This document shows, in pieces, positions 9,718 through 63,193 of a stretch of 64,000 nt of DNA; the first letter of the stretch is position 1; the number at the start of each line of letters is the position of its first letter. The position numbers and the translations under genes are program-made. The notes under the pieces are model-generated. The model saw only the letters and a program-made list of their open reading frames with translations, had not been told where the DNA came from and ran no database searches. The stretch comes from Erysipelotrichaceae bacterium (GTDB lineage: Bacteria; Bacillota_I; Bacilli_A; RFN20; CAG-826). Where the stretch lies: contig SVBB01000008.1 of assembly GCA_015059105.1 (NCBI GenBank), forward strand, positions 1-64,000. The letters run 5' to 3'.

Positions 9718-10694
9718 TGGGTTTAATATCTTTTTTAAAAAACAAATTCACTAAAAATGATGAATCTACAAAAACTTATAGCGAGGGAATGGAAAAATCC
9801 CGTCGTAATTTTTCTAATAAATTAACTGATTTATCCAAAAGATATAAAAGTGTTAACCAAGATTATTTTGAAGAATTAGAAGAAATATTAATTGAATCTG
9901 ATGTTGGAGTCTCTTTAGCGCTTAGAACAATCGAAGAATTATTAGACATGTCTAAGGAACAAAACATCACTGATCCTGTGGCAATTAATGAATTATTGGT
10001 CGATAGATTATTTATCAATTATGCGGATAAAGGGGATGTTGTTAACGAGATTAGATTTGTAGAAAATGGACCTACTGTTTTATTAGTAGTGGGCGTTAAC
10101 GGCGTTGGTAAAACAACAACCATTGCAAAGATTGCTAACCGTTATATTAAGCAAGGCAAGAAAGTGATGCTTGCCGCCGCGGATACTTTTAGAGCAGGGG
10201 CAATTGAGCAATTAACTGTTTGGGCCCAAAGACTCAAGATTGATATCGTGACTGGCGCCGCGAATAGTGATCCTGCTTCTGTTGCTTATGACGGAGCAGT
10301 TAAAGCAAAGAAAAACAATGTCGATTTATTAATTGTTGATACAGCAGGAAGACTTCAAACAAAACAAAATTTGATGGATGAACTTGCTAAAATCAAAAGA
10401 GTATTAGGCAAAGAAATACCTGGTGCACCACATGAAACATTTATCGTTATCGACGCTACAACTGGTCAAAATGGTGTCATCCAAGCAAAGGCCTTTTCCG
10501 AAGTTAGTAAGATTACAGGAGTAGTGATTACTAAGATGGATGGAACATCAAAAGGTGGGATAATTTTAGCCATCAGAGATGAGATTGGTGTTCCAGTGAG
10601 ATTTATCGGCTTAGGCGAAAAAATGGATGACTTACAAGAATTTGATCTCGACAAATATTTATATGGCTTATGCGTAGGAGAAGCTAATGACTGA
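9717..10694 (+). CDS. ftsY: Signal recognition particle receptor FtsY
   Basis: This 325-residue SRP-type GTPase has an N domain to about residue 115, then G1 GVNGVGKTTT, DTAGR, and TKMDGTSKGG. It lacks the long acidic A domain of enterobacteria, as is usual in Gram-positives. It docks ribosome-SRP complexes at the membrane and forms a twin GTPase with Ffh, encoded two genes downstream. In Bacillus an smc gene separates rnc and ftsY; here they overlap directly. Confidence 0.96.
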   Translation: MGLISFLKNKFTKNDESTKTYSEGMEKSRRNFSNKLTDLSKRYKSVNQDYFEELEEILIESDVGVSLALRTIEELLDMSKEQNITDPVAINELLVDRLFINYADKGDVVNEIRFVENGPTVLLVVGVNGVGKTTTIAKIANRYIKQGKKVMLAAADTFRAGAIEQLTVWAQRLKIDIVTGAANSDPASVAYDGAVKAKKNNVDLLIVDTAGRLQTKQNLMDELAKIKRVLGKEIPGAPHETFIVIDATTGQNGVIQAKAFSEVSKITGVVITKMDGTSKGGIILAIRDEIGVPVRFIGLGEKMDDLQEFDLDKYLYGLCVGEAND

Positions 10695-55115: not shown

Positions 55116-55880
55116 ATGGCAGAAGAAAAGATTATCGCAGTGATGAAAAGATATGAACTCAAGTTCTACTTGAACAAGGAACAACTAGCCTATTTTAATG
55201 AAAAGATTGTCGAGCATATGAAACTTGATAAATACGGTTTAACTTCTATCGCGTCACTATATTACGACACTCCTGATTATCGACTCATCAATCGCTCGAT
55301 TGAAAAGCCTAAGTATAAGGAAAAATTAAGACTCAGGAGTTATGGACTCGCAAAAGAGGATTCCAAAACATTCTTGGAAATCAAAAGAAAAAGCGAAGGA
55401 ATTGTTTATAAAAGAAGAATCTCTTTATTAGAAAAAGAAGCTGATGAGCTAATCAGAACTAATGAAGCAGAAAGAAAAGATCAAATCGGAAGAGAGTTAG
55501 AAGCTTTCTTAGAGAATTATAAGAAAGTTGAGCCAAAGTACTTAATAATCTATGACAGAATGGCTTATTACCAGGATGATAGTGACTTAAGAGTAACGGT
55601 GGATATCAACCCAAGATATAGAACAACCGATCTCAATCTCCATACTTCTTTAGAAGGAACACCATTAACTGATGATGGTGGGGCAATACTTGAGATCAAA
55701 GTACAGCACAGCATTCCTCTTTGGCTAACAAAGATATTAACCGAAGGGAAAATATATCAAACGAGTTTCTCTAAAGTGGGAACCGCCCATATTAAAGAGA
55801 TGAAGAAACAACAACTTAATACAGTTGTATACGAACAACAATACGTTCAAGGAGGACGTCAATATGGATTCACTATTTAA
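55116..55880 (+). CDS. VTC-domain protein (polyphosphate polymerase-type fold)
   Basis: This 254-residue protein has the VTC catalytic-tunnel pattern: KRYELKFYL at the start, SLYYDTPDY, KLRLRSYG with basic residues, FLEIKRKSEGIVYKRR and a late EIKV. VTC domains in eukaryotes make polyphosphate; bacterial members occur almost always with DUF4956 and CotH-like or beta-helix lipoproteins, and their product is not established. AGGAGGG precedes the ATG. It overlaps the next gene by 17 nt. Confidence 0.9.
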   Translation: MAEEKIIAVMKRYELKFYLNKEQLAYFNEKIVEHMKLDKYGLTSIASLYYDTPDYRLINRSIEKPKYKEKLRLRSYGLAKEDSKTFLEIKRKSEGIVYKRRISLLEKEADELIRTNEAERKDQIGRELEAFLENYKKVEPKYLIIYDRMAYYQDDSDLRVTVDINPRYRTTDLNLHTSLEGTPLTDDGGAILEIKVQHSIPLWLTKILTEGKIYQTSFSKVGTAHIKEMKKQQLNTVVYEQQYVQGGRQYGFTI

Positions 55881-56562
55881 TTTATTAGCCGAGACAAATT
55901 CTTATGTCGTTTGTCTATTGGTTATCGGTATCACATTTGTAATTGGATTAGTTTATACGTTCATCATATCGATCAAGATGAGAGCGACAAAAGGCTTCTT
56001 CATTACTTCGATCTTGATGCCGATGATCGTGGCAAGCGTGATATCGATGGTGAGTTTGTTCCTCGATAGCGCTTCTACAGGAGCGATAAGAATCGCAACA
56101 ATCGCAGTCGCATTAGGACTCATTAGATTCAGAAGCGTGAACGGTAGAGCGGAAGAGATGCTCGTCTTATTCGGAGGTGTGGCATTTGGCCTTATTGGTG
56201 GACTTGGATACGTCGTCATCGCCGCAATTGTAGCTGTCGCCTTATCCGCCCTATACGTCGTCTTATCTTCACTTAGTATCTGGGATCATAAAAGAATAGG
56301 AGAAGAAAAACTATTAAAAGTCACAATTCCCGAAGACCTCAATTATAACGAAGCATTTGATGCAATCTTAAAAACACATCTCAAGAGTTACGAACTCGTC
56401 GAGATAAAAACTACTGGTATGGGAAGCTTGTTCAGACTTTCCTACAAAGTAGAACTGCTCGTTAAAGATAGTGAGAAAACGCTTATCGATGAACTGAGAG
56501 TGAAGAACTCAAATCTTGAAATATCATTACTTCCATATGTGGAAAACACTAAATCATTATAA
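55864..56562 (+). CDS. DUF4956 membrane protein
   Basis: This 232-residue protein has four transmembrane segments in the first 130 residues (about 10-35, 48-68, 72-92 and 100-130) and a cytosolic alpha/beta tail. LGLIRFRSVNGRAEEMLVLFGG is the DUF4956 signature. GGAGG at 55852 sets the ATG at 55864. It is the standard partner of VTC proteins and may form the membrane part of the polymer machinery. Confidence 0.9.
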   Translation: MDSLFNLLAETNSYVVCLLVIGITFVIGLVYTFIISIKMRATKGFFITSILMPMIVASVISMVSLFLDSASTGAIRIATIAVALGLIRFRSVNGRAEEMLVLFGGVAFGLIGGLGYVVIAAIVAVALSALYVVLSSLSIWDHKRIGEEKLLKVTIPEDLNYNEAFDAILKTHLKSYELVEIKTTGMGSLFRLSYKVELLVKDSEKTLIDELRVKNSNLEISLLPYVENTKSL

Positions 56563-56574
56563 GGAGAAAAAGTT

Positions 56575-58404
56575 ATGAAAAAGAAACATTTATTACCATT
56601 ATCCGCATTCGCATTATTATTGCTCATGGGTTGTTCAGTATCAGGAACTAGCACTTCTGCAGCATCAACTGATACTTCTAACACCACAACTAGTGAAACA
56701 AGCGGAGCTACTTCTGATACGACAAGCGAGAACAACGGATCAGCTTATGATTACAATTCTCAAATCTCAGTAGAAGAAGCGGAAGAAATTGAAGTTGAAG
56801 ATAACGTTGGTGACTTCGCGATTGAAACTAGCGACGGCACTTATACAAAAACAAATAATATTTATAAGATTACTTCTGCTGGTACATATACTTTAAGTGG
56901 TAACCTCACTGGCCAAATCCTAGTGGAAGCTGGCGAAGATGATGAAGTTGTTATCGAACTAAATGGAGTTTCTATCACCTATGGTAGTGACGCGCCTATC
57001 AAAGCGTTAACAGCTGGTAAAGTTGAAATCTCTGCTAAAAAAGATACTGGTAACACCATTACTGACACAAGAAGCGCAAAGACAACTGATACTACAACCT
57101 TAGGGGAAGGCGCAATTTACGCCAAAACTGATTTAAAGCTTAAAGGTAGTGGCACATTAGTAGTGGAAGGCAACTACAACAACGCGATTCACACGACTAA
57201 GGATCTCAAGATTCAAAAATTAACATTAAAAGCGACTGGTTATAACAATGCCTTAAAAGGTAATAACAGCGTTACTATTGAATCTGGCGAAGTGCAAGCT
57301 TACGCGAAAACCGGTAATGGTATTAAAACAGAGGATAGTTCAGTTACTAGTAGCGGTAATCAAAAAGGAACGGTGGCAATTAATGGTGGATCTGTCTATA
57401 TCGATTCATTACATGATGCGATCGATGCAATTTACAATATCGAGATCGATGAACTTGATAGCACTGTTCCAACAGAAATCTCCATCAAAACTGGCACGAA
57501 ATCCACATTTTATTCTAAATCCAGTTTCAAAGCTGATTCTGAAAAAGGATTAAAAGCTGCGAATGAAATTAAGGTGAATAAAGGTGTAGTGGTTATCGCC
57601 GCTAGTGACGATGCCATCCATGCAAATTATGGTGATACTTTAGAAAATGGTTCTAAAGGATTAGGTAATATCACGATTAATGATGGGTTAATTCAAGTCG
57701 CGAGTGGTGATGATGGCTTACATGCTGATAATATCCTTGCTATCAATGGTGGTAAGATTGTCGTCACTGGCGCGACTGAAGGGTTTGAAGCTAACTATAT
57801 TAATATTAACGGCGGTTACTCCTATATCTACGGCACTGATGATGGCGTCAACTGCTCTAAGAAATCGTTCAACAACTGTGCAATTACTATCACTGGTGGT
57901 TATCTCGATGTCGCAGTGAGTAATGGCGATACAGATGGCATCGATTCTAATGGTAACTTCACGATGAGTGGTGGGACAGTCATCTCTAGAGGATCTCCAG
58001 GAACTAGTTCAGCGATGTCCACAGGCTTAGATGTCGATGGCACTTGCTCAATTACTGGTGGTACATTCATCGCCTTCAACGGTTTAGAAGTTGCTCCAAC
58101 TAAAGGCAGTAATGTCTTATTCGCCGGCACCACAACTGCTGGTAGCGGAATGGGCGGCATGCCTGGAAGAGGTGGATTTGGAAGACCAGGTCAACAAGGA
58201 ACTAGCTCATCTTATTCCTTCCAAGCCGGTAGTTATACTCTCACTGGTGGAAATCTAAATATTAGTTTTACTAACGACTATAATTACGGTAGCTTCATGA
58301 TCTATTCTTCTAACTTAGCAACTAGCAATACTTATACATTATCTAGAGGTACGACAAGCGTGCTATCTTGGAATCAATCTTCTAGCTCCGTTACAATTTC
58401 CTAA
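56575..58404 (+). CDS. Beta-helix carbohydrate-binding lipoprotein (Cthe_2159-like)
   Basis: This 609-residue lipoprotein (lipobox LMGC, Cys about 21) has a Ser/Thr linker to about residue 60. A long right-handed beta-helix follows, with repeated motifs such as DDAIHANYGDTL, SGDDGLHADN and DGIDSNGNFTMSGG, the pattern of the Cthe_2159 carbohydrate-binding family. A Gly-rich stretch (GMGGMPGRGGFGRPGQQG) lies near residue 530. Family members bind acidic polysaccharide and calcium. It is third in the VTC operon with its own ribosome site. Confidence 0.88.
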   Translation: MKKKHLLPLSAFALLLLMGCSVSGTSTSAASTDTSNTTTSETSGATSDTTSENNGSAYDYNSQISVEEAEEIEVEDNVGDFAIETSDGTYTKTNNIYKITSAGTYTLSGNLTGQILVEAGEDDEVVIELNGVSITYGSDAPIKALTAGKVEISAKKDTGNTITDTRSAKTTDTTTLGEGAIYAKTDLKLKGSGTLVVEGNYNNAIHTTKDLKIQKLTLKATGYNNALKGNNSVTIESGEVQAYAKTGNGIKTEDSSVTSSGNQKGTVAINGGSVYIDSLHDAIDAIYNIEIDELDSTVPTEISIKTGTKSTFYSKSSFKADSEKGLKAANEIKVNKGVVVIAASDDAIHANYGDTLENGSKGLGNITINDGLIQVASGDDGLHADNILAINGGKIVVTGATEGFEANYININGGYSYIYGTDDGVNCSKKSFNNCAITITGGYLDVAVSNGDTDGIDSNGNFTMSGGTVISRGSPGTSSAMSTGLDVDGTCSITGGTFIAFNGLEVAPTKGSNVLFAGTTTAGSGMGGMPGRGGFGRPGQQGTSSSYSFQAGSYTLTGGNLNISFTNDYNYGSFMIYSSNLATSNTYTLSRGTTSVLSWNQSSSSVTIS

Positions 58405-59102: not shown

Positions 59103-60307
59103 TGATTAAGAAACTGAGAATCAAATTTATTATCATCTCGATGTTATCGGTTCTTTTCGTTCTCGCGGTGACTATCGGAGCAATCAATATCACTAACTAT
59201 ATCGTCATTGAAAATGACGCTAATGGAGCAGTCAGTGAAGTGATTAGACAAGGAACAGGCGATAACCCATTTGGTCCTGGTGGTGGTCCTGGTCAAAGAA
59301 GAGATATTAGACAAGACCATTATTTCATCGTTTCTTTTAATAATGATGGCTCGGTCAATAAAGTGAACGCCACTCACATGTTCATGTATAACGAAGAGGA
59401 ATGTAAACAGTTAGCAACGCGCGTATATAATAATGAATTAACGGGCGGTAAATATGACACTTTACGTTATGCTTTAGAAAAGAAAAATGATGGCTTAACT
59501 TATGTTGGATTTGTTGATATAAAAGATAAGTTAGATAGTTTTAATAACTTCTTATTGCTCTCTTCTCTCATCTCTTTAGGAGCGTTCCTCATCTTATTCA
59601 TTCTCATCTTTATTGGTTCTAAACTCGTGTTTAAATCAACAGAAGAAGCGTATCGAAAACAAAAGAGATTTATCACTAACGCATCGCACGAATTAAAGAC
59701 ACCTTTAACGATTATCTCTGCAGATATCGATTTAATTGAGATGGATAATGGGAAAAGCGAATGGAGTGATTCCGTTCGCGATCAAGTAAAAAGATTAACG
59801 GATATGACTAACCAACTAGTGACGCTTTCTAAACTCGAAGAAGAAGATAAGTCGCGTTTCCCAATGGAAGAATTCTCTCTTAACAATGTTTGTAAAAAGG
59901 CGGTAGAATCATTCTCCCCAAGTTTTAAAAACGAAGGTATTAAATTCTCTAGTAATATTTCTGGTAATATTTCGATGTACGGGAACAAATATCTCATCGA
60001 CCAGTTAATCTATATCTTTTTAGACAATTCTCTCAAATATACTGGAGGAGAACAAAAGAGTTCATATTTCGTCGTCAGTGAGAATAAGAACAAAGTTGAA
60101 CTGCGCTTCTCAAATACGATTGATAAAAACGATGAAGTTGACGTCAAACAAATCATGGAAAGATTCTATCGTTCCCCGTCTAATAAAAAAGAAGGTTCTG
60201 GAGTGGGATTATCAATCGCTCAAGAGATCATCAGATTCCATAAAGGGAAAATAGATATTGATAAAAACAACAATACGTTATCGTTTGTTGTAACACTGAA
60301 TAACTAG
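59102..60307 (+). CDS. Sensor histidine kinase
   Basis: This 401-residue protein has two transmembrane helices (about 10-30 and 148-175) bracketing an extracytoplasmic domain. Near residues 55-75 that domain carries a Gly/Pro-rich segment (FGPGGGPGQRR), reminiscent of the tail of the beta-helix lipoprotein. The H-box is ASHELKTPL with H196; the N-box is LDNSLKYT and the G-box is GSGVGLSIAQ. It probably senses envelope or polymer status and phosphorylates the adjacent regulator. Confidence 0.94.
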   Translation: MIKKLRIKFIIISMLSVLFVLAVTIGAINITNYIVIENDANGAVSEVIRQGTGDNPFGPGGGPGQRRDIRQDHYFIVSFNNDGSVNKVNATHMFMYNEEECKQLATRVYNNELTGGKYDTLRYALEKKNDGLTYVGFVDIKDKLDSFNNFLLLSSLISLGAFLILFILIFIGSKLVFKSTEEAYRKQKRFITNASHELKTPLTIISADIDLIEMDNGKSEWSDSVRDQVKRLTDMTNQLVTLSKLEEEDKSRFPMEEFSLNNVCKKAVESFSPSFKNEGIKFSSNISGNISMYGNKYLIDQLIYIFLDNSLKYTGGEQKSSYFVVSENKNKVELRFSNTIDKNDEVDVKQIMERFYRSPSNKKEGSGVGLSIAQEIIRFHKGKIDIDKNNNTLSFVVTLNN

Positions 60308-60310
60308 ATT

Positions 60311-60333
60311 AACTCCTTAAGGAGTTTTTCTTT
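60311..60333 (+). terminator. Intrinsic terminator of the two-component operon
   Basis: ACTCC pairs with GGAGT around TTAA, then five T. Confidence 0.75.
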
Positions 60334-60382
60334 TAAATATAGCTAACAATATAATAGCAATTATAACAAAATATGTTAAAAT

Positions 60383-60388
60383 TATAAT
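60383..60388 (+). promoter_or_regulatory. -10 box before the large structured RNA
   Basis: TATAAT at 60383-60388 predicts transcription from about 60395. No -35 box is clear. Confidence 0.5.
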
Positions 60389-60394
60389 GTTCAT

Positions 60395-60714
60395 ATATTT
60401 AGACCACAGGCGTTATGAACTAGCTAGTAGCAAAGTCGACCATATGCAGGTACACAGTGATAAATGGATATATGAACTGGTATGTCGTATGTGTTAGGGC
60501 ATATCAATGTGGAAAGCACCGCCCAGTATGAAATGAGCTCCTAAAGGAACAAACCCTTCGTGGAATCCTTAATAGCAAGATATTCATACAAACGCTCCAC
60601 ACAATAGAGATATTGATCCTGAGGCCATCCAAATGGGATGTAACACCACAAGATAGAACTAGTAGGGATATTAGTCGCTATCTTGACAAGGTGTTTTCAT
60701 TTGGATGGTTTTTT
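60395..60714 (+). ncRNA. Candidate large structured RNA (about 320 nt)
   Basis: No open frame occupies this stretch, but long-range helices nest cleanly. ATCAAT (60503-60508) pairs with ATTGAT (60612-60617), GTGG (60509-60512) with CCAC (60597-60600), AGC with GCT (60594-60596), and GTATGAA (60526-60532) with TTCATAC (60583-60589). A 3' domain stacks CCATCCAAATG (60625) with CATTTGGATGG (60698), AACACC with GGTGTT, and CAAGATAG with CTATCTTG, and ends in six T. A 5' helix joins CGACCATA with TATGTCG. It fits no class I know. Confidence 0.65.
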
Positions 60715-60772
60715 AAATTTCTCCTTTTGAAAACACGACAAAGTATGTTGTTCAAAAAAGGAGGAAAAAACG

Positions 60773-61894
60773 GTGAACAAAGACTATGACGATGCTGTAA
60801 AAGTTATAAAAACAGCAATATTAGCTAGCCAATTAGATGCTTTAAAGTCTATCAATGAAAAGCAATTAATTCTATATTATGCGATTGGCAAATATATCTC
60901 TCTTAATACCAGAAATGGGAAATGGGGAGAAAATGTTATTGATGAGATAGGTAATCGATTGAATGCAGAACTTCCTGGTTTAAGAGGCTTTTCAAGCAGA
61001 AATTTGAGAAACATGAGGCAATTCTATGAAGAGTGGAAAATGCTAGAACATGTTAAAAATGACAATTTGGAAGACGCGTCTGCCAAAATACAAAATATAT
61101 TTGATTGCTCTATCAACATTGAATACATCAATAGTGTGTTTGATATTGATATTCATAATTTTTTATCAGTGTCATTTTCTAATCATATGATTATTATTTC
61201 AAAAGTTAAGTCGATGGTTGAAAGACTATTTTATTTAAAGCAATGTATTTCTAATCGATATAGTTATCGTGAGTTGAAAATTGCTATATCTAACGACGAA
61301 TATCATCACCAAGGACAATTATCCAACAATTTTGAGAAAACTATATCAGACAATAGCAGAGTTATTAAGGCAATTAATTCTTTCAAAGATCAATATTTGC
61401 TAGATTATGTTAATGCTGAAGAGATTGATGTTAGAGATAAGATGGACGTCGATGAAAGAGTGATTGAAAATGGTATAGTCCATAACATTAAGAAATTTAT
61501 TCTTACTTTCGGCAAAGATTTTGCTTTTATTGGGAACCAATATCATCTCGAAGTATTTGGAGAAGACCAATATGTAGATTTGTTGTTCTTCAATAGAGAA
61601 CTTAATTGTTTGGTGGCGGTTGAGCTCAAAACTGGGAAATTCAAAACATCATATCTTGGGCAATTAAGTGGATATCTTACTGTTCTTGATAAATGTGAAA
61701 GAAAAGAGCATGAGAATCCGCCTATTGGAATAATATTGTGCAAAGATATGAATAAATCGTTCGTCGATTTTGTGATACGTGATTACAATAGCCCAATGGG
61801 TGTTTCTACGTATAAAGATATGTCGGATAAAGTGAAAGAGCACCTACCTAGTATTGAAGAGTTAACTAAACTGCTTGATTCTAATGATGATTGA
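60773..61894 (+). CDS. DUF1016/YhcG-family PDDEXK nuclease
   Basis: This 373-residue protein has an N-terminal DUF1016 domain (residues about 15-95, LILYYAIGKYISLN and LRGFSSRNLRNMRQFYEEW). The C-terminal PDDEXK nuclease fold has VDLLFFN (Asp) and VAVELKTGKF (ExK) near residues 270-290. YhcG-type proteins are often near restriction-modification or mobile elements. It has a GTG start with AAAGGAGG about 10 nt upstream. It stands alone behind the large structured RNA. Confidence 0.9.
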   Translation: MNKDYDDAVKVIKTAILASQLDALKSINEKQLILYYAIGKYISLNTRNGKWGENVIDEIGNRLNAELPGLRGFSSRNLRNMRQFYEEWKMLEHVKNDNLEDASAKIQNIFDCSINIEYINSVFDIDIHNFLSVSFSNHMIIISKVKSMVERLFYLKQCISNRYSYRELKIAISNDEYHHQGQLSNNFEKTISDNSRVIKAINSFKDQYLLDYVNAEEIDVRDKMDVDERVIENGIVHNIKKFILTFGKDFAFIGNQYHLEVFGEDQYVDLLFFNRELNCLVAVELKTGKFKTSYLGQLSGYLTVLDKCERKEHENPPIGIILCKDMNKSFVDFVIRDYNSPMGVSTYKDMSDKVKEHLPSIEELTKLLDSNDD

Positions 61895-61896
61895 TA

Positions 61897-61926
61897 GAAA
61901 AAAACTGGACTAAATGTTGTCCAGTT
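61897..61926 (-). terminator. Terminator overlapping the cobW-type stop codon
   Basis: AACTGGAC and GTCCAGTT form a stem. The minus-strand product is followed by eight T and the stop codon lies at the loop edge. Confidence 0.8.
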
Positions 61927-63160
61927 CTTCTTTAATGCCTTCTTTATCGAGGTTTTGACCGATGAAGACTAATTTATTCAATTTGTCTTTCCATTTTTCA
62001 TCCCAGTCGTGGGCGAAGAATTCATCATTGGCTAGCAAGGCTTTTATTTGTCGTGGAGTCAATGTTTCAGAATACCATTTTCCGTTTTCCATGAGTTTTC
62101 TTTGTTTGCCCGCGGATTCGTAAACATAACTCATTGCTTCATCATTAGAGAAATAGACAATGCCTTTACTACGAATGATGTTTCTACCATTATTAGCGAC
62201 CCAGTCTTCAAATTTCTTTCTATCAAATGGTCTTCTACGATAATAGACGAAAGTGTTGACGTTATATTCATCAGCAGTTCCTTCATCATCGTTTTGATCA
62301 ACCCCGTGTTCGTGGTGGTGATGGTGGTGATGGTGTTCTTCGTGTTCGTGATGCTCGTGCTCATCATCGTCATCGTCATCATCATCGTGATCGTGATGAT
62401 GTTCATCAGCGTCTTCTTCATTATCCCAGGAATCGAATTCTCTAATCCAAGCAGCGGAAGAAGCAGCTTTTTCATAGGAATATAAGTGGGTATCAATAAG
62501 TTTATCGATGTCGATATCGCAGTAATCAGTTTCGATGATGGTCGCATTATCTTGCAAAGCAAGAATCACTTTCTTAATCTTTTCTAATTCATCTTTAGAG
62601 ACTTCTGAGCATTTGTTAAGAAGGACGATATCGCAGAATTCGATTTGTTGGATGATGAGGTTTTCTAAATCTTCTTCTCCTCTTTCTGCAGAGCTTAAAG
62701 CGTCTCCGCATCCGAATTCATCTCTTAATCTAAGCGCATCAGTAACAGAAATGATCGCGTCGAGAGTGTAGAACTTAGGAAGATTTTGTTTGTTGAATTC
62801 TTCTTCCATATATTGAATTGTTTGAGCGATTGGGACTGGTTCGCAGATTCCGCTTGCTTCGATTAAGATGTGGTCGAATTTTTGAGAATTGACGATATCA
62901 GCGAGTTGGCTGATTAAGTCCGCTTTTAATGTGCAGCAGATGCAGCCGTTTTGTAACGCGACGAGGTTATCATCTTTAGAATTAACGACTCCGCCTTTTT
63001 GAATGAGTTCCGCGTCGATGTTAACTTCTCCAAGGTCGTTGACGATAACCGCCATCTTATGGCCTTTCGCGTTTTTTAAGATATGGTTAATCAAAGTGGT
63101 TTTACCACTTCCGAGGTAACCAGTGATTAATGTAATTGGTACTGTTTTAAATTGTTCCAT
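61910..63160 (-). CDS. CobW/COG0523-family GTPase metallochaperone with a His/Asp-rich loop
   Basis: This 416-residue G3E GTPase has Walker A GYLGSGKTT (residues 14-22), the metal-binding GCICCTL (C73, C75, C76), LLNKCSE near residue 180, and the CobW C-terminal domain from about 300. Between the domains (residues about 250-288) is an extreme His/Asp/Glu tract, with runs of eight or more Asp and eight His. Such loops bind zinc, nickel or cobalt. The ATG at 63160 has GGAG upstream on the minus strand. It probably delivers zinc or another metal to a client enzyme. Confidence 0.92.
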   Translation of the reverse strand: MEQFKTVPITLITGYLGSGKTTLINHILKNAKGHKMAVIVNDLGEVNIDAELIQKGGVVNSKDDNLVALQNGCICCTLKADLISQLADIVNSQKFDHILIEASGICEPVPIAQTIQYMEEEFNKQNLPKFYTLDAIISVTDALRLRDEFGCGDALSSAERGEEDLENLIIQQIEFCDIVLLNKCSEVSKDELEKIKKVILALQDNATIIETDYCDIDIDKLIDTHLYSYEKAASSAAWIREFDSWDNEEDADEHHHDHDDDDDDDDEHEHHEHEEHHHHHHHHEHGVDQNDDEGTADEYNVNTFVYYRRRPFDRKKFEDWVANNGRNIIRSKGIVYFSNDEAMSYVYESAGKQRKLMENGKWYSETLTPRQIKALLANDEFFAHDWDEKWKDKLNKLVFIGQNLDKEGIKEELDNI

Positions 63161-63178
63161 AGTTTTTTCTCCACGAGG

Positions 63179-63193
63179 CATTGTATCACAATG
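63179..63193 (-). promoter_or_regulatory. Palindromic operator candidate of the metallochaperone gene
   Basis: CATTGT-ATC-ACAATG is a perfect 6-3-6 palindrome about 20 nt before the start codon. A metal-responsive repressor site is possible; it does not match the usual Zur box. Confidence 0.4.

Follow-up and report, generated by a model that had tools for sequence, protein, structure and literature searches.

The window, which is the whole 64,000-nt stretch of DNA that was analysed, contains a structured RNA of about 320-330 nt on the forward strand (60389-60714). It extends from a promoter to a terminator and is followed by a gene for a YhcG-type nuclease (Table 1), whose product matches the PADLOC candidate defence protein PDC-S02 (E 3.8e-115). 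The RNA is real, and the comparative data for it lie far beyond chance. On the forward strand, the region 60383-60714 folds with an MFE of -92.7 kcal/mol (z = -3.5 versus dinucleotide shuffles), compared with z = -2.2 for the reverse strand. A sequence-only reading of this DNA had described the region as lacking an open frame, with a TATAAT at its 5' end and a 3' hairpin ending in six T. All of this is borne out: there is no open frame of at least 60 amino acids in 60383-60714, the hairpin is an intrinsic terminator, and the TATAAT most likely serves as the -10 box from which the RNA is transcribed. This reading of the TATAAT is based on 62 of 64 loci, in which a similar box (no more than one mismatch) precedes the RNA. 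No perfect TATAAT occurs between terminator and gene in 64 gaps. The effector gene is adjoined on the minus strand (61910-63181) by what appears by eye to be a COG0523-like GTPase gene with a long His/Asp-rich stretch. Three genes at 55116-58404, apparently encoding a VTC domain, a DUF4956-type membrane protein, and a repetitive secreted protein (also by eye), form a run upstream of a two-component system.

Table 1 Features of the RNA and its downstream gene in the window
Feature	Position	Strand	Evidence and remarks
TATAAT, best read as -10 box	60383..60388	+	Sequence reading; at most one mismatch in 62/64 loci
P1, closing the exchangeable 5' module	60389-60401 with 60465-60477 (60389..60477)	+	Arm-swap z 10.7; 39 distinct pairs
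P4 hairpin	60478-60485 with 60499-60506	+	99.6% paired; both-side changes in 8/8 pairs; arm-swap z 15.8
P5 long-range helix	60508-60513 with 60596-60601 (60508..60601)	+	100% paired (33 sequences); arm-swap z 4.7
P6 with enclosed variable P7 module	60526-60532 with 60583-60589 (60526..60589)	+	Arm-swap z 11.5 (P6), 13.9 (P7)
Match to Rfam RF02941 'COG3943 RNA'	60591..60694	+	85.0 bits (gathering 71.8), E 5.6e-14
P8 hairpin	60602..60615	+	92.4% paired; both-side changes in 4/6 pairs; arm-swap z 9.9
Strand A (CCATCCAAATG)	60625-60635	+	Local alternative partner B
Strand B (GATG)	60637-60640 (A+B: 60625..60640)	+	A:B 99.6% paired; CAUC:GAUG to CGUC:GACG
Intrinsic terminator	60643..60714	+	C:D, P11, A:E, then TTTTTT (60709-60714); in MFE
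C:D	60643-60647 with 60690-60694	+	Nearly invariant
P11, inner hairpin of terminator	60649-60656 with 60678-60685	+	Arm-swap z 11.9
A:E	60625-60635 with 60698-60708	+	97% paired, covarying; arm-swap z 9.3
D:G, antiterminator candidate	60691-60699 with 60728-60736 (60690..60736)	+	91% paired; arm-swap z 8.7
F:H hairpin over Shine-Dalgarno AGGAGG (60759-60764)	60721-60728 with 60756-60763 (60721..60764)	+	84% paired; arm-swap z 6.1; in MFE
Effector gene, DUF1016_N + YhcG_C PD-(D/E)XK nuclease, GTG start	60773..61894	+	Pfam 98, 158 bits

RF02941 and the larger RNA

An Rfam scan of 60100-60900 at E ≤ 5 returned RF02941 and two sub-threshold chance matches, and nothing else. The RF02941 match is full-length (model positions 1-108) and above the gathering score. 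The sequence-only reading had missed this match, and its proposal of a "new large non-coding RNA" is thus true only in part: the RNA is large, non-coding, and strongly covarying, but its 3' third is RF02941. It had been right to set aside tmRNA, RNase P, SRP, T-box, and the riboswitches familiar to it; no Rfam match to tmRNA, RNase P, SRP RNA, or group I/II introns was found anywhere in the window. A T-box identity was rejected because no T-box match appeared in 60100-60900 even at E ≤ 5 and the longest complement to the three tRNAs of the window is 7 nt. Complementarity to the rRNA and tRNAs of the window, at most 10 nt, gave no lead.

In Rfam, RF02941 is an sRNA-type entry of 108 nt in which the 5' tail is unpaired and only A:B and C:D are drawn. 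This model is a fragment of a longer RNA, since its supposedly unpaired tail forms the covarying helix P5 with upstream sequence (100% of cells) and the conservation, with covarying helices, continues for about 200 nt on the 5' side. The full RNA also differs from the model in the A:E end of the terminator and in the D:G and F:H pairings, which reach into the leader of the effector gene. The pairing of the tail enlarges the RF02941 family and does not exclude the window RNA from it. The namesake gene type of the family, COG3943 (RhuM), follows the RNA in 12 of 78 loci; the effectors are mostly not COG3943. RF02941 is reportedly, and probably, from Weinberg et al. in 2017. No function for it was found in the literature searched, where the papers containing the word COG3943 are, by title and abstract, not about an RNA. 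The orphan riboswitch-like leader is a known kind of element and RF02941 a known fragment; as far as the literature searched shows, the RNA at its full length, with its double switch and range of effectors, is new, and the original description of RF02941 may already contain parts of this.

The comparison covers 78 unique loci and about 20 later check loci, all from uncultured gut or rumen Bacilli. The genome that contains the window has three RF02941 matches and three YhcG_C genes, with one RNA just upstream of each gene. A search of 84,980 species genomes with the core pattern GTGTTARN{12,15}GGAAAGYAYYGYCCA yielded 72 stretches. Apart from two in Proteobacteria, their sources are MAGs with the labels Bacilli, Erysipelotrichaceae, Bacillales, Mollicutes, or Tenericutes, with one 'Clostridia' and one 'bacterium', and many are from gut or rumen. 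The pattern did not require RF02941, and an RF02941 part lies 56-133 nt (mostly 103-107 nt) behind the core in nearly all loci. The RNA is absent from two matches in Proteobacteria MAGs (L065 and L098), which were discarded. Within one family, 57 of 196 genomes have the RNA. Phage and plasmid collections gave no match, and in viral contigs the core pattern gave one genuine match (L126; IMGVR_UViG_3300032007_003637, 9844-10242). There the RNA lacks the G/F/H leader, and the 141 bases behind it contain no effector start. A 16-nt pattern from the 5' module had 32 matches in viral contigs including L126, the rest of which were judged to be chance by the length of the pattern.

Across loci, the constant parts are the P4 loop (with GTGTTAG at 60491-60497), the core, P5, and the 3' part. 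P5 overlaps the conserved core GGAAAGCACCGCCCA, connects the upstream domain to the RF02941 part, and occurs as TGTGGA:TCCACA, TGCGGA:TCCGCA, and TAGGGA:TCCCTA, among other forms; it is absent from the Rfam model. Covariation across homologous loci, which the sequence-only reading had named as a check on its candidate, is strong. Across 33 sequences, P4 and P5 together are 99.8% paired and reach a covariation score of 0.675 versus 0.228 ± 0.020 in shuffles (0/500). The 3' part was compared in 59 sequences and is 93% paired (0/500 shuffles). In a second test, the arms of a helix were exchanged between loci and the fall in helix strength was scored as z (3.6 for P2; other helices in Table 1); relatedness of the sequences can inflate these values as well as the covariation scores. 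When relatedness was kept and partners were slid, the pairing of P4 and P5 dropped to 28-55%. The arm-swap test was used for P1 because register shifts made a plain alignment unusable for counting pairs.

The periphery of the RNA is exchangeable. At the same place inside P1, the loci have at least two clear types of 5' module (A and B) and others, and the window has type A (GGCGTTATGAACTAGC...GTCGACCATATGCAGG). The P7 module is reduced to almost nothing in L057. The two long-range contacts drawn in the sequence-only reading fared differently. That of 60526 with 60589 is P6, whereas that of 60503 with 60617 is unsupported because P4, which contains 60503 (60499-60506), and P8 (60611-60615), which 60617 adjoins, covary with other partners. 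A conserved leader peptide was also rejected: an ATG-AAC-TAG can be read in most type A RNAs, but L003, L018, L047, and type B lack it.

Mutually exclusive pairings and a proposed leader switch

The helices at the 3' end form two mutually exclusive sets, A:E with C:D and F:H versus A:B with D:G, of which the first is the predicted MFE in the window. A:B and A:E share a strand, as do C:D and D:G, and these pairings are 91-99% paired. In the window D is GTGTTTTCA and G is TGAAAACAC, while F and H are CTCCTTTT and AAAAGGAG. Strand G (GAAAACACC), behind the terminator and just before the gene, can pair with D (GGTGTTTTC), which forms the 3' side of the inner stem of the terminator. Pairing of the 3' arm of the terminator (GGUGUUUUC) with GAAAACACC would break both the terminator and the hairpin that hides the ribosome-binding site.

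The D:G pairing has a mean score of 20.0 over all loci, compared with 12.9 ± 0.25 in 200 dinucleotide shuffles, and its 91% of paired cells come from 59 loci. In 17 RF02941 loci fetched later it scored 18.0 versus 10.6 ± 0.5 in mononucleotide shuffles. The start codon is apparently misassigned in three of them, and since all belong to the genome family already sampled and may be closely related to the earlier loci, this result repeats the first without being fully independent of it. The changes in D:G are often one-sided G-U, with both-side changes at the helix end. C:D, being nearly invariant, gives no covariation support. Both D:G and F:H are present across the cargo families, and the start codon lies 55-86 nt 3' of the RNA whatever the gene (78 unique loci), barring a few alternative upstream TTG starts. 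The position of the RNA, directly before the gene and in the same sense, is constant.

We favour, with a probability of roughly two in three, the reading that the RNA is a cis-acting riboswitch-like leader with transcriptional and translational control over exchangeable effector genes. The leader, about 320 nt long and transcribed from a promoter of its own, would control the effector gene behind it. In the default state, predicted to be OFF, A:E and C:D would form the intrinsic terminator and F:H would hide the ribosome-binding site, turning the gene off at both levels. The upstream domain (P1-P8, with the GUGUUAG loop and the GGAAAGYAYYGCCCA core) would sense a trigger, upon which A would pair with B and E would be freed. 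D:G could then form, opening the terminator, trapping F in the D:G loop, and leaving H free for ribosomes. That the alternative helices decide termination or ribosome access is what we infer from them, and the direction of switching, along with the existence and nature of a trigger, is likewise proposed.

The same MFE structure, which in the 3' part of the window is the OFF state, would also be expected of a silencer without sensing, in which a fixed terminator and a hidden ribosome-binding site keep toxic genes low. Such a silencer, however, would need neither the approximately 200 nt of conserved, covarying structure upstream nor the conserved alternatives A:B and D:G, and we regard it as quite improbable. 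The sensing leader that we prefer has the architecture of riboswitch and T-box leaders, with which it shares a promoter, a large conserved domain, alternative helices, a terminator, a ribosome-binding-site hairpin, and fixed spacing to the gene. Riboswitches mostly control metabolism. In contrast to riboswitch and T-box leaders, the RNA has no other Rfam family match in its region, it precedes toxin- or nuclease-type genes instead of metabolic ones, and both its peripheral modules and its genes are swapped.

Exchangeable effector genes and copies of the RNA

The first genes of the 78 loci, grouped by similarity, are YhcG (29), a family with the motif KYHFR...HPFIVV (13, one of them broken), RhuM (12), and DUF4314 (9), together with small groups of a 60-aa protein (2) and a WHFR relative of the KYHFR family (2). 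BrnT/BrnA stands behind the RNA in three further loci, and 20 additional RF02941 loci have YhcG (9), RhuM (7), KYHFR (1), or BrnTA (3). A RhuM member that was scanned (L044) has the Pfam domains Virulence_RhuM and Fic. One RNA thus precedes at least five unrelated protein families: YhcG, RhuM-Fic/Doc, a predicted MazF-like-fold family, DUF4314, and BrnTA. Toxin-antitoxin or anti-phage roles of these effectors are plausible.

Proteins of the KYHFR family have 109-118 aa (e.g., L010:1674-2024, L009, L053, and L110; also G022:C25:676-1023 and G416:C51:19575-19916), and scans of representatives against Pfam, NCBIfam, and PHROGs gave no match. For an AlphaFold model of the family (pLDDT 85.8), the best 20 PDB matches are all MazF chains (probability 0.84-0.99, E from 0.09, TM about 0.5-0.6). 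No structure match falls below E 0.001, so this is a resemblance to the MazF fold and not proof. Among 17 RNA-bearing genomes, seven of nine strong matches to the family sit at the RNA. The 60-aa protein (MRNPNRI...) precedes the KYHFR gene in two genomes and could be its antitoxin.

BrnT/BrnA genes were seen directly behind the RNA in L048, L067, L124, L172, L177, and L184. In the first three they follow the Shine-Dalgarno of the leader, with a YhcG remnant downstream in L048, and seem from their sequence to carry their own promoter; read-through would therefore not be needed there, which counts against the leader switch. An apparent group II intron-type reverse transcriptase gene (L044:15545-16828, by eye) lies downstream of the second RNA locus of its genome.

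The range of genes bears on whether the RNA acts on the protein instead of the gene. The sequence-only reading had suggested an RNA partner of the DUF1016/PDDEXK protein, against which the occurrence of the same RNA before at least five unrelated families argues. A partner of YhcG only was rejected on the same variation of cargo and on near-identical RNAs that, within one genome, stand before YhcG proteins of about 30% identity or before YhcG and RhuM. More broadly, the terminated RNA could be a trans-acting antitoxin or protein partner that neutralises the product of the downstream gene by binding to it, in the manner of RCd22 with AbiF. This RNA of Clostridioides difficile is structured, non-coding, and toxin-associated, and through direct binding it works both in cis and in trans (PMC12373285). 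Like the RNA described here, it accompanies a toxin-type gene in a gut member of the Bacillota; furthermore, stopping at a strong terminator would set the RNA free, and several of the effectors are toxin-like. However, the AbiF RNA belongs with a single protein family and binds it, and the specificity for one toxin family that marks type III TA and AbiF systems was not seen across our loci, where the RNA is common to unrelated families and apparently a cis switch. A specific fit between RNA and protein is unlikely given those unrelated families and the near-identical RNAs before different proteins, and it would leave unexplained the covarying D:G and F:H, which link the RNA to the ribosome-binding site. 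We therefore consider a trans-acting role unlikely; owing to the covarying pairings between RNA and gene, a cis-acting leader switch fits better than an RNA partner of YhcG.

Copies of the RNA within a genome can be almost the same. The window RNA and a second RNA of that genome (G000, the C4 RNA) are the same along about 310 nt, apart from a few differences, and have sharp borders. One base differs before the 3' part, and their YhcG proteins are about 30% identical. A sister genome (G001) has two identical RNAs before different genes, and the near-identical, sharply bordered copies before different genes within one genome comprise L017/L021, L008/L016, L049/L051, and the two copies of L080. 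Of 27 pairs from within a genome, 7 have cores that are more than 94% identical, compared with about 1.7% of between-genome pairs at more than 95%; cross-genome pairwise identities of the 5' part were left out because of end-gap artefacts. Between G000 and G001, the 5' module of the RNA differs at the syntenic window locus. The first effector gene differs between the sister species at a conserved HPRT-ABC transporter locus, with the order RNA-YhcG-RhuM/Fic in G000 and RNA-RhuM/Fic-YhcG remnant in G001. L068 and L080 contain tandem RNA-gene arrays. Gene conversion between RNA copies is possible, with MAG assembly error at repeats as a caveat.

These near-identical copies before different genes, the swap at one locus, and the tandem arrays would also fit a mobile or recombining cassette, in which the conserved block is mainly a recombination site for swapping effectors and regulation is secondary. 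Genes that are often transferred in gut mobilomes include COG3943 and DUF1016 (PMC10782964). Yet compensatory changes and conserved unpaired residues indicate selection on the RNA, the fixed spacing to the start codon calls for regulation, and ordinary gene conversion between repeats suffices to explain the copies, making a primary role in recombination quite unlikely. We tentatively suggest a modular device in which a conserved RNA core with exchangeable modules and genes, homogenised by gene conversion, might sense phage attack or other stress and release the effector plugged in behind it. If so, the conserved part of this RNA-sensor immunity or toxin system would be its sensor and not its effector.

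A large orphan RNA switch over interchangeable toxin- or nuclease-type genes would connect orphan RNAs with the control of toxins or with phage defence, and RF02941 would be redrawn from an sRNA to a leader about three times longer, with a double switch and a list of effectors. The RNA also offers a possible regulatory setting for YhcG/DUF1016 and RhuM-Fic, two groups whose roles are, to our knowledge, poorly known, and its loci point to a MazF-like family without a Pfam entry. In one locus (L105, JAILGI010000017.1), a truncated RNA core can be read to run straight into the C-terminal end of an apparent RhuM-type gene, a junction that is apparently a deletion scar.
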